Origin: Phaeobacter italicus
GTDB lineage: Bacteria > Pseudomonadota > Alphaproteobacteria > Rhodobacterales > Rhodobacteraceae
Direction of reading: 5' to 3'
Assembly (NCBI RefSeq): GCF_001258055.1
Contig: NZ_CVRM01000005.1
Location: 1 to 64,000 of the forward strand
DNA length: 64,000 nt
Both the position numbers and the translations under genes were made by a program. Numbering within the stretch: position 1 is the stretch's first letter; every line of letters starts with the position of its first letter. Below are positions 60,488 through 63,580 of the stretch, piece by piece. A model generated the notes under the pieces. The model had not been told where the DNA came from. It saw nothing but the letters and a program-made list of their open reading frames with translations, and ran no database searches.

Positions 60488-60572
60488 GCGGGTGTGGCGA
60501 AATTGGTAGACGCACCAGATTTAGGTTCTGGCGCCGCAAGGCGTGGGGGTTCAAGTCCCTCCACCCGCACCA
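60488..60572 (+). tRNA. tRNA-Leu (anticodon TAG), with encoded CCA
   Basis: An 85-base gene. The acceptor stem GCGGGTG pairs with CACCCGC, followed by A and an encoded CCA. The anticodon loop CCAGATTTAGGTTCTGG carries TAG (decodes CTA/CTN). A type II long variable arm (GGCGCCGCAAGGCGT region) and the T loop GGTTCAAGTCC complete the leucine pattern. The integrase starts reading 95 bases beyond the 3' end, so the tRNA 3' part is the likely attachment site of the prophage to the right. Confidence 0.95.
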
Positions 60573-60666: not shown

Positions 60667-61668
60667 TCACGATTTGGTCCGACGTGCTTGCGCGGTCTGT
60701 GATAGGCGCTTTTGGTTGGCCTGGCTGCGGTACTTCTTCACCATCTCAAGCGTCTTGTGTCCGGTCACCGCCTGGATCTCGCTGTCACTGGCGCCTGCCT
60801 CAGCCAAATGGACCGCTGCGGTGTATCGCCAGCCATGGATCACAAATGCCTGCGCACCTATTTCTTTCCGGACGGCCATGACGCGCTGCTGAATGGTTCG
60901 TTTGGCAACGCCTTTATGCAAAGACTGTGCGATGATAAAGCGGCCTTTGCGTGGCAGGCCGTCGAGGTACTTGCGCAGAAATTCTGGGCACGCGACCCAA
61001 AGGCGCGCCGCGGTCTTTTCCTGTACAACAGATATAAACTGACCGTCATAGTGCGCCCATTCCATGCCGATCACGTCGCCGATCCGCTGACCAGTACCAA
61101 CCCCCAACATGTATGCGGTCAATTCCCACTCAAGAGCGTTGTTTTCGCAGTACGCTTCAAAGGCGCGGAGCTTTGCCGCGGGCCAAGGCTGGTATTCACC
61201 GCCCTTGAGCTTTTTGACACCGCTCGCCGGGTTTGCGGTGATCCATTCCAGATCGATCGCGTGGCGCGACAGGATGGAAATCATTTCGACCATCGCGTTC
61301 GCTTTTCGCCATGTGTCGGAATATGCATCGCGTGCGGCAATGACGTCGCGGCGGCGCAGTTTTGTGAAATCCTTTGGGCCGTTCTTTTCTCGGATCAGTT
61401 CGAGAGTGCGCCGATACTCTTGTCGCACTCTGGGTTTCCGGTCCTTAAACTCTGGGGTCTGATAGTAGCTGACGATCAGGGCCTCAAAGGTGGTTTTGGT
61501 CTTCTTTTTGGCGCGACCAGAACGGATTGCCCAATAGGCATCGTCAAATTGCTGGCTGTCTGGATCGTTGGGCAGACGCTGATACGTCTCGCCGCGCCGA
61601 AAATAGTAATAGACACGGCCCTTTACGGTCTTGGTCGTGACATACTTTCGCTCCAGCTTCTTTACCAT
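60667..61668 (-). CDS. Tyrosine recombinase, prophage integrase
   Basis: A 333-residue phage-type integrase beside the tRNA-Leu gene, transcribed toward it. Catalytic residues are visible: Arg in GTGQRIGDVIG, Lys region FISVVQEKTAARL, His-x-x-Arg in VIHGWRYTAAVHL, His in VTGHKTLEMV and Tyr in KKYRSQANQ. An N-terminal arm-binding domain precedes them (YYYFRRGETYQRL). Placement next to a tRNA 3' end is the classical arrangement of an integrated prophage or island; the element extends right, beyond the window. The start overlaps the end of the AlpA-like gene by 7 bases. Confidence 0.93.
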   Translation of the reverse strand: MVKKLERKYVTTKTVKGRVYYYFRRGETYQRLPNDPDSQQFDDAYWAIRSGRAKKKTKTTFEALIVSYYQTPEFKDRKPRVRQEYRRTLELIREKNGPKDFTKLRRRDVIAARDAYSDTWRKANAMVEMISILSRHAIDLEWITANPASGVKKLKGGEYQPWPAAKLRAFEAYCENNALEWELTAYMLGVGTGQRIGDVIGMEWAHYDGQFISVVQEKTAARLWVACPEFLRKYLDGLPRKGRFIIAQSLHKGVAKRTIQQRVMAVRKEIGAQAFVIHGWRYTAAVHLAEAGASDSEIQAVTGHKTLEMVKKYRSQANQKRLSQTAQARRTKS

Positions 61669-61865
61669 GTGAACTCATCTTCATTCATTGCGTTGCCGTT
61701 TAGAACGGCCTCAAGATCAGACACCCGCCAACGCTCCAAGCCGGAAATCCGAACGGGTGAAGGAAGAGATCCGGATTGCACCAGCCGCCGAAAATCCGAC
61801 GGCTTCATGTCCATCATCTTGGCCGCAGTGCGTTCGGCAACCGCGATCAGTGCGATACGTCCCAT
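61662..61865 (-). CDS. AlpA/MerR-like excisionase or DNA-binding protein
   Basis: A 67-residue protein with a winged helix-turn-helix pattern (TAAKMMDMKPSDFRRLVQSGSLPSPVRISGLERWRVSDLEAVLNG), similar to AlpA and small excisionases that bend DNA next to integrases. It overlaps the integrase start, so the two are co-translated, which suits an excisionase role. ATG 61865 (MGRIALIAVAERTA) was chosen because the upstream extension does not fit the family. Confidence 0.8.
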   Translation of the reverse strand: MGRIALIAVAERTAAKMMDMKPSDFRRLVQSGSLPSPVRISGLERWRVSDLEAVLNGNAMNEDEFTW

Positions 61866-62057
61866 TGCAGATACCTCAAACGGTGACGGGTTTTGAATTG
61901 GTCGGCTAGACCAGCAGAGTGGCCGCGAAGCGGCGACTGTCCCGCGGTTTCGCATGGCCTGATCGACCCATTGATGGGCGCGGCCGGTCTCCGTGAGTGG
62001 GATTTGCCGCGCCCGGGCAAAGCGGGACTGCCCGCGTTGTGAAAAAGGGCCGGGACC

Positions 62058-62727: not shown

Positions 62728-62758
62728 TCAATCCTCCATCGGTTGATGGGTGAATGTA

Positions 62759-62775
62759 ATGCGAAAAAATCGTAT
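62759..62775. promoter_or_regulatory. Phage operator 1 (ATGCG-N7-CGTAT)
   Basis: A 17-bp site of the consensus ATRCGRRAAAATCGYAT. It lies 32 bp upstream of the leftward gene starting at 62727 and has the same spacing as the other three copies. Likely bound by the repressor encoded at 62965-63261. Confidence 0.75.
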
Positions 62776-62789
62776 TAGTCAATTCATAA

Positions 62790-62806
62790 ATACGGAAAAA
62801 TCGTAT
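62790..62806. promoter_or_regulatory. Phage operator 2 (ATACG-N7-CGTAT)
   Basis: The most symmetric copy of the 17-bp site, 31 bp (about three helical turns) from operator 1, on the side of the repressor gene. The spacing suits cooperative binding on one DNA face. Confidence 0.75.
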
Positions 62807-62964
62807 ACTTGAATTAATGGCTGTGCTTGCAATCGCTGCACGAGTGGGAATAAAACGTGAACATTGTGAAGGGAATCAAATGCTGCCACGGCTGATAGCC
62901 ACAGTGCTCGTACCGCTGGGTTTCAATCTGAACTGGGTTTTCGCTCCACGCTTGTCGTGGAAGG

Positions 62965-63261
62965 TCAGTCGAGGTTCTTCACGATCTCTTGAAGAGTGTC
63001 GGCGGGCAGCTTTGACGGATCGCCGCCAAGAATGAAATTGAAGTCAATTTGGAATGCAGCAAGGAAATATGCCATTAGGCGCACCGAGGGGGAGCCTGAT
63101 TGTTCTTGGGATCGAAATGTCGTGTATTTGATGCCAGCGTTCGCGGCGAGCTCTTTTTGTGATAAACCCGTAGCCTGGCGCGCGGCTACAAGGCGTTTGT
63201 GAATTGCCTCAGGGGAGGTGTCTCCCCGCATGCATGTGCGTTCTGTCTCTAGGAAGGTCAT
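62965..63261 (-). CDS. Cro/CI-family phage repressor, small
   Basis: A 98-residue XRE-type helix-turn-helix protein (IHKRLVAARQATGLSQKELAANAGIKYTTFRSQEQSG, then MAYFLAAFQIDFNFILGG). It lacks the C-terminal peptidase/dimerisation domain of LexA-like repressors, so induction by RecA-stimulated self-cleavage seems unlikely. Divergent from a Cro-like gene, with operators on both sides, it is the likely lysogenic repressor. The ATG at 63261 has no clear ribosome binding site (an ATG at 63231 is the alternative), so translation may be weak or leaderless. Confidence 0.8.
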   Translation of the reverse strand: MTFLETERTCMRGDTSPEAIHKRLVAARQATGLSQKELAANAGIKYTTFRSQEQSGSPSVRLMAYFLAAFQIDFNFILGGDPSKLPADTLQEIVKNLD

Positions 63262-63279
63262 TATCTAGCTATCGCGGAA

Positions 63280-63296
63280 ATACGAGAAAATCGCAT
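63280..63296. promoter_or_regulatory. Phage operator 3 (ATACG-N7-CGCAT)
   Basis: A copy of the 17-bp consensus 19 bp upstream of the repressor start, in the divergent gap with the Cro-like gene. It probably overlaps the repressor promoter and could mediate autoregulation. Confidence 0.75.
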
Positions 63297-63320
63297 CAAG
63301 TTACACCTGTACACTTGATG

Positions 63321-63337
63321 ATGCGAAAAAATCGTAT
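63321..63337. promoter_or_regulatory. Phage operator 4 (ATGCG-N7-CGTAT)
   Basis: Identical over all 17 bases to operator 1. It lies 12 bp upstream of the Cro-like start and 41 bp (centre to centre) from operator 3, placing it over the rightward early promoter. Confidence 0.75.
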
Positions 63338-63349
63338 TACGCATCCTTT

Positions 63350-63580
63350 ATGAACACTCGAAATCTTATCCAAGCCCTTGGCGGCTACCGCTCCGTTGGT
63401 GTGCGGTTGGGCAAGAGCCCGACCACTGTCCACACCCATATGCAGGAGGGGGTTCTGCCTGCTGCATGGTATGATGCACTGTGCCAGATAGCGCGAGAGA
63501 GCGACGTGGCTGAACCGCCACGATCGCTCTTTTCCTTTCTGCAGGTCGGTGACCCCTCGAGTGGGGAGGAGGCGGCATGA
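63350..63580 (+). CDS. Cro-like helix-turn-helix protein
   Basis: A 76-residue protein whose N-terminal part (MNTRNLIQALGGYRSVGVRLGKSPTTVHTHMQEGVLPAAWYDALCQIA) reads as a compact helix-turn-helix of the Cro/YdaS type, with a loose tail. It is divergent from the repressor, with operators 3 and 4 in the 88-bp gap. It probably competes with the repressor to open the lytic or replication programme. Its stop overlaps the next start (ATGA). Confidence 0.72.
   Translation: MNTRNLIQALGGYRSVGVRLGKSPTTVHTHMQEGVLPAAWYDALCQIARESDVAEPPRSLFSFLQVGDPSSGEEAA

Follow-up and report, generated by a model that had tools for sequence, protein, structure and literature searches.

In phage lambda the operators are arranged three to a cluster, about 24 bp apart, and Cluster A mycobacteriophages carry many asymmetric stoperators genome-wide. 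The locus compared here with these and other phage switches is a prophage immunity region in a 64,000-nucleotide stretch of DNA (the window), whose host is probably a member of the Rhodobacteraceae, judging from named relatives. Repressors and sites of the Cluster A phages are described as diversified into immunity groups (PMC6550527). Gifsy phages are described as induced by LexA-controlled antirepressors, and the same account names Tum of phage 186 and AntC of N15 (PMC3121763). For modules of a transcription factor and a small open reading frame (TF-smORF), the report outlines a small protein proposed to inactivate a phage repressor (PMC10432266). SinI of Bacillus is described as forming a heterodimer with the XRE repressor SinR via residues conserved between both proteins, which abolishes DNA binding (PMC3163267). 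Temperate phages of Sulfitobacter are reported to encode XRE regulators without a peptidase domain, with switch proteins not yet known according to the authors (PMC7305329), and of the CI-like proteins of Paracoccus phages a single one is listed with an S24 domain (PMC6536676); both papers concern phages from the same bacterial group as the window, compared with its family by description. In a term search, the main text of a survey of Rhodobacteraceae prophages contained no mention of operator, antirepressor, LexA or SOS (PMC8224337).

The immunity region in the window encodes a 98-residue XRE-type repressor flanked by four predicted 17-bp operators at fixed spacings, whose half-sites change with the repressor among relatives. 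A small gene convergent with the repressor and a LexA-type box, both absent from the original prediction made for this DNA, complete the region (Table 1). The locus is reasonably likely to be a lambda-like switch in which induction depends on a mini-antirepressor under LexA control, encoded within the immunity region itself; this role is proposed for the product of the small gene. Conclusions at the family level rest on relatives and not on the window copy.

Table 1. Features of the immunity region and of the adjoining end of the element (window coordinates).
Feature	Coordinates	Strand	Remarks
tRNA-Leu	60488..60572	+	ARAGORN; probable integration site
Tyrosine integrase	60667..61668	-	PF00589 E 3.3e-17; phrog_1 E 4.6e-33
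Excisionase-like helix-turn-helix (HTH) protein	61662..61955	-	phrog_66 E 1.7e-4; HTH_17 below its cut-off
First leftward gene, 89 residues	62458..62727	-	proposed to be pL-driven; relatives 43-87% identical where found
Predicted promoter pL	62753..62782	-	-35 TTGACT (62777-62782), -10 TACATT (62753-62758)
Candidate operator OL1	62759..62775		within pL spacer; exact match, position conserved
Candidate operator OL2	62790..62806		31 bp from OL1; exact match
LexA-type box GAATAAAACGTGAAC	62848..62862	+	one mismatch to GAACN7GAAC
Small gene, 51 residues	62880..63035	+	ATG at 62880; convergent with repressor, overlaps repressor 3' end
Repressor, 98 residues, XRE-type HTH	62965..63261	-	phrog_2328 E 3.8e-7
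Candidate operator OR2	63280..63296		repressor side of divergent region; exact match, conserved
Predicted promoter pR	63315..63343	+	-35 TTGATG (63315-63320) and -10 region 63338-63343, with the operator between them as spacer
Candidate operator OR1	63321..63337		fills pR spacer; 41 bp from OR2; exact match
Cro-like small HTH protein (carph-isopro-like)	63350..63580	+	NF046037 E 1.7e-6, 28.1 bits, below cut-off 38

The original prediction placed two of the four sites in the gap between the repressor and the divergent Cro-like gene and two beyond the repressor, before the leftward gene. Positions and gene layout were both borne out: each site matches the palindrome ATRCGA-N5-TCGYAT with no mismatch, and the window contains no further site when up to three mismatches are allowed. 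At this threshold, shuffled versions of the window gave a mean of 1.21 matches, with 3 of 100 shuffles reaching four. The slightly relaxed pattern ATRCGRNAAAATCGYAT has four exact matches in the genome of 4,049,567 bases, all inside one 580-bp stretch, and two one-mismatch matches elsewhere (reversed control, 0). On this whole-genome count, chance was rejected as the origin of the four sites. The motif had also been called undescribed, in agreement with the best-ranked matches of the literature searches (in a library mostly without subscription papers), which contained no described operator of this kind and no description of the repressor family, its operators or the small gene. The all-A core is a trait of the window copy; in relatives the core is AT-rich and variable.

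A protein search of viral contigs revealed seven loci with repressors 74-81% identical, four of which (L053-L056) are near-copies. All seven carry four sites at the same offsets, in pairs 41 and 31 bp apart, with at most three mismatches to the window consensus on the better strand; across the alignment of close relatives the half-sites and a TTGAC element are constant, the core drifting. The 17-bp motif, for which a search of other phages had been proposed originally, thus recurs in close relatives. A fixed ATNCG palindrome failed in most far ones, and pairs of similar palindromes were therefore sought with no motif supplied. This motif-free search drew on a wider sample of 83 loci, comprising 38 genome loci, presumably all from Rhodobacteraceae or close kin judging by the organism titles, and 45 viral loci. 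Five loci were omitted (L099 and L100 as near-copies of L098, L139 and L141 as partial loci, and also L140), and the remaining 78, together with the window, were merged to 62 distinct loci sharing less than 60% of 12-mers. Many of the 62 are related, so the counts do not represent independent events.

Of the 62 loci, 36 yielded an upstream pair (41 bp apart in 18 loci, 40 in 12, 31 in 5 and 32 in one) and 21 a downstream pair (31 bp apart in 18 loci, 30 in 2 and 38 in one), as against means of 0.1 and 0.6 loci, respectively, in dinucleotide shuffles. An earlier, looser pair search had returned chance repeats as the best set in several of the 78 loci (e.g., L066, L067, L070, L107) and nothing in seven; a stricter score was used for the final counts. 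The half-site is RTRCGA in the window's group and takes other forms elsewhere: ATCCGA, GTCNGA or GTTCAA, RTCCA, GTACAT, GTTCAG or GTCCAG, and others. The operator plan is thus preserved under changing half-sites, distant prophages combining other predicted half-sites with the same plan of 40-41 or 31 bp at the repressor start and 30-31 bp beyond its end.

The candidate operators coincide with predicted early promoters. Among loci with an operator pair of the expected spacing (35 for pR, 20 for pL), the 9 nt before the operator contain a TTG in 28 of 35 loci at pR and 14 of 20 at pL, and those after it in 8 of 35 and 3 of 20, which indicates that the operator usually fills the promoter spacer. 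When pR loci are aligned on the operator, most display a TTGACA-like element, the 17-bp operator and TA, the start codon typically following 11-14 bases past the operator. In the window the -10 match of pR is poor; the TTGAC of pL is invariant in eight aligned loci (four of them near-copies). By eye, the starts of the repressor (63261) and Cro-like (63350) genes lie close to operators without an obvious Shine-Dalgarno sequence, and the Cro-like start falls near the expected transcription start of pR. This position, together with the lack of a visible Shine-Dalgarno sequence, suggests leaderless mRNAs. Looping between the left (OL) and right (OR) operators has no clear support: over 15 related loci, helical phasing is weak, with p 0.03-0.26 according to the period and the pair chosen.

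The small gene was first noticed as a plus-strand open reading frame (ORF) with third-position variation in the alignment of the left intergenic region. Outside the overlap with the repressor (8 loci, 28 codons), the ratio of nonsynonymous to synonymous polymorphism (pN/pS) comes to 0.26 for its own frame, as compared with 0.47-2.69 for the remaining five, a pattern of purifying selection. A by-product of the repressor antisense strand was rejected as the origin of the ORF, the conserved core lying mostly outside the repressor gene, where pN/pS was computed. In 60 of 62 loci, among them 18 of 20 untrained ones, a profile trained on 42 loci (E up to 1) matched next to the repressor gene, on the strand opposite to it; the small gene was not found by this search in L068 and L075, and a single weak match occurred elsewhere in the searched loci. 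With the small protein as query, viral contigs yielded 60 pattern matches; 11 proved to be relatives and 49 were not confirmed as such. All 11 confirmed loci carry the repressor: nine are on contigs already known through it, and in the two new ones (L152, L153) it is encoded on the strand opposite the small gene. A GGGAATC sequence at 62871-62877, before the start codon, is conserved in most of the window's group and is possibly the ribosome-binding site of the small gene.

The small protein of the window has no match in PHROGs, Pfam or NCBIfam. Among 39 aligned sequences (out of the 42 small-gene loci found by motif), single members match phrog_2328 (E 0.056), to which the repressor itself belongs, phrog_726 (E 0.057) and HTH_29 (E 0.023). 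The core of the alignment is conserved, with three invariant residues, L, N and P. In hhalign, the small-gene profile matches residues 64-78 of the repressor with E 0.028, and 1 of 150 column-shuffled profiles was equally good. This likeness hints at mimicry of the repressor by the small protein.

Exact LexA-type boxes of the alphaproteobacterial form, GAAC-N7-GAAC, stand just upstream of the small ORF in nearly half of the family: 28 of the 62 loci, the window not among them, contain one within 250 bp past the repressor end. Loci with an exact box include L069 of Leisingera sp. ANG-Vp and L082 of Roseovarius nubinhibens ISM. The expectation from the rest of the same loci is 0.63; changing the spacer to 6 or 8 gives 0 and 1, respectively, and counts for six further tetramers with spacers of 6-8 range over 0-2. 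The genome of the window carries an exact box before its own recA and lexA and 128 boxes in all on both strands, as against 101 for the reversed control, so that a box alone means little and its placement counts. With up to one mismatch, GAATAAAACGTGAAC is the sole occurrence in its own genome. It recurs identically, spacer included, in L059, L060, L061, L105 and L153 and, because of this identity, may be a functional variant.

The following course of events is proposed. In the lysogen, the repressor bound to OR1 and OL1 would shut pR, which serves cro and the early genes, and pL, which serves the leftward operon with xis and int; on OR2 it would limit its own transcription. The repressor is probably unable to cleave itself. 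Upon DNA damage LexA would leave its box and the small protein would be made, inactivating the repressor, perhaps by occupying a repressor contact segment, and thereby inducing the prophage. Transcription of the small gene would run antisense into the repressor gene and may help. A wider proposal, possible and advanced tentatively, is that of a widespread kind of prophage switch, apparently belonging to Rhodobacteraceae, with the SOS trigger built in: a LexA-controlled protein of about 50 residues, from a gene convergent with the repressor and overlapping it, mimics the last helices of the repressor's DNA-binding domain and inactivates the repressor, so that repressor, operators and antirepressor diversify jointly as one exchangeable immunity cassette.

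Several observations weigh against this interpretation. In control stretches about 1.5 kb off, obtainable from 59 of the 62 loci, pairs of palindromes occur in 7 of 59 and 6 of 59 loci, with scattered spacings that include one each at 30, 31 and 41 bp. At the threshold used, 26 of the 62 loci have no upstream pair and 41 have no downstream pair; L107 and its group were missed by the motif-free search, their sites being read from the alignment with the window, and L062 (72%), from the window's own group, has no clear downstream pair. The promoter of the repressor (pRM) has no recognisable -35 element, a TTG preceding the operator in 4 of 35 loci and following it in 5. In 34 of the 62 loci the 250 bp that follow the repressor end contain no exact box, and the box of the window deviates by one mismatch. 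Over its final third to half, the small ORF lies antisense to repressor coding sequence, and a constraint of its own cannot be read from this part. Small protein and repressor resemble each other weakly, over 15 columns, and the model of the small protein, a helical one, is of low confidence (predicted local distance difference test, pLDDT, 70). Finally, the prophage looks truncated or continued on another contig, and function may therefore be lost in the window.

The SOS transcript might act mainly on the repressor gene as antisense RNA or by transcriptional collision, with a secondary role for the peptide. Such a system would resemble OOP of lambda, a LexA-controlled antisense RNA against cII, and the convergent arrangement overlapping the repressor 3' end is the same in the 60 loci where the small gene was found. 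The low pN/pS in the coding frame outside the overlap and the invariant L, N and P of the core argue that the peptide matters, and this explanation is unlikely. It is quite improbable that the small gene encodes an SOS-induced accessory peptide, toxin-like or related to superinfection, which does not act on the repressor. The product is small and, by eye, partly hydrophobic, its gene follows a LexA-type box in many loci, and its family matches, none for the window copy and single weak ones for other members, suit this explanation. A cargo gene, however, would be expected to move independently, whereas the profile has just one weak match away from the repressor in the searched loci, every confirmed viral relative is accompanied by the repressor, and the product has weak similarity to the repressor tail.

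The identity of the protein that reads the four sites is indicated by L107, a natural immunity exchange. Compared with the window, its integrase is 95%, its excisionase-like protein 92%, its first leftward protein 87% and its Cro-like protein 93-96% identical, while its repressor is 42-45% identical and the half-sites are changed in all four sites, at matching places of the alignment. A partial Mantel test on 15 loci gave a correlation of 0.75 (p 0.0002) between pR-operator and repressor distances given Cro, and of -0.08 (p 0.75) between pR-operator and Cro distances given the repressor, by a permutation without correction for ancestry. These 15 were the loci with the closest Cro among 46 with a Cro-like protein, L106 being omitted for a failed automatic pick of its Cro; their pR operators were taken from alignments and site lists, since the automatic pick was wrong in, e.g., L098, L105, L107, L071, L072 and L079. 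Together, the L107 swap and the Mantel test indicate that the identity of the sites goes with the repressor and not with Cro. Of the two proteins put forward originally as candidates for binding, the repressor is supported by this co-variation, and Cro gains nothing from it. As a descriptive matter, the recognition-helix segment KYTTFRSQE occurs with RTRCGA and KKTTFHSQE with GTCNGA or GTTCAA, while forms containing NSQ occur mostly with ATCCG half-sites. A reading of the sites chiefly by the Cro-like protein, the repressor being secondary, is highly improbable. In its favour, the sites flank pR and pL, lambda Cro recognises the sites of its repressor, and the T, C and G common to both half-site types could still allow recognition by Cro. 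Against it, L107 has altered half-sites beside a nearly identical Cro, the Cro segment TTVHTHMQ is nearly constant across loci with differing half-sites, and the partial Mantel correlation for Cro is -0.08. A role of the sites as operators of Cro alone was rejected on the Mantel test and L107.

The repressor itself has the helical HTH fold of the P22 c2 and 434 type. The best solved relative of its family profile is P22 c2 (hmmsearch, E 7.3e-5), and the confident structural model (pLDDT 87) shows an HTH bundle followed by a short final helix. In Foldseek, TM-scores by target were good for P22 c2, 434 and SinR domains (0.78 to 2r1j_L, 0.73 to 2cro), with no E-value of 0.001 or below. No S24 peptidase domain was detected in the window repressor by scans of PHROGs, Pfam and NCBIfam, and family members have 96-127 residues. 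Four of them used as queries had no match among 50,697 phage records. In one search, matches weaker than about E 1e-10 were set aside as presumably ordinary XRE proteins.

The window holds one end of the element only. The integrase gene lies just beyond the tRNA-Leu gene, the product of the first leftward gene has no family match in the libraries searched, and 46 of the 62 loci share a similar first rightward ORF (blastp E <=1e-3, small set). Just past the window, in the rightward early operon, a NusG/UpxY/RfaH-like gene (contig 65329-65979, L007:5329-5979) matches phrog_6386 (E 1.2e-14), Pfam NusG (E 9.3e-7) and, below its cut-off, the UpxY family (E 9.1e-12), with homologues 43-45% identical in L080 and L084; its product may be the processive antiterminator of the phage. 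Gene fragments follow in L007:6000-8608, among them an ORF resembling a sugar isomerase (PF01261, E 9.9e-24). No structural phage gene was recognised up to the contig end at 68,608, the rest of the genome not being searched for such genes. The right attachment site was not found, a search of the own genome with the tRNA 3' end returning only another tRNA cluster. In a genome of the same genus (G075), locus L157 carries a related integrase at the same tRNA-Leu (89% DNA identity over 511 bp) and, nearby, an ORF for a candidate insertion-sequence transposase. Among six same-genus loci at this tRNA-Leu, only L157 resembles L007 downstream.

Compared with the systems outlined above, the Gifsy phages share with the window's family a non-cleaved repressor and SOS induction via a LexA-controlled small protein, a mode that would apply in the family by analogy with the published description. 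The Gifsy antirepressor genes lie outside the immunity region (PMC3121763), whereas the proposed one of the window is inside, convergent with and overlapping the repressor; its family also lacks a good match in the libraries searched. The TF-smORF modules, as outlined in their report, differ in that a partner transcription factor switches them on without need of DNA damage; the phages studied there had been selected for self-cleaving repressors (PMC10432266). A SinI-like mode is proposed for the small protein with no homology claimed; unlike in SinI and SinR, the likeness in the window is weak and concerns the last helices of the repressor's DNA-binding domain. In contrast to Cluster A mycobacteriophages, the family has four symmetric operators at fixed places. 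It comprises dozens of repressor-operator pairs on one fixed layout, a natural swap included, from which a recognition code and immunity groups could be predicted. If the proposal is true, the convergent small gene and the LexA-type box explain the removal of a non-cleavable repressor in the family.

The likeness to lambda, P22 and 434 lies in a repressor between two operator clusters, a divergent Cro-like gene, operators at pR and pL, a leftward operon leading to xis and int, and a DNA-binding fold like that of P22 c2 and 434; by sequence, operators stand on both sides of the repressor at divergent early promoters. The OR/OL-like layout suggested in the original prediction is thus sustained by conserved positions, by operators lying in the spacers of pR and pL, and by their co-variation with the repressor, while the number and spacing of the sites set it apart from lambda. 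Each cluster of the window consists of two operators, with spacings of 31 and 41 bp and with other sequences than in those phages, and the repressor consists of little beyond the DNA-binding domain, without the C-terminal self-cleaving and oligomerising S24 domain. Overall, the layout resembles OR and OL of lambda yet departs from it in three defining details: operator number, operator spacing and the cleavable C-terminal domain.
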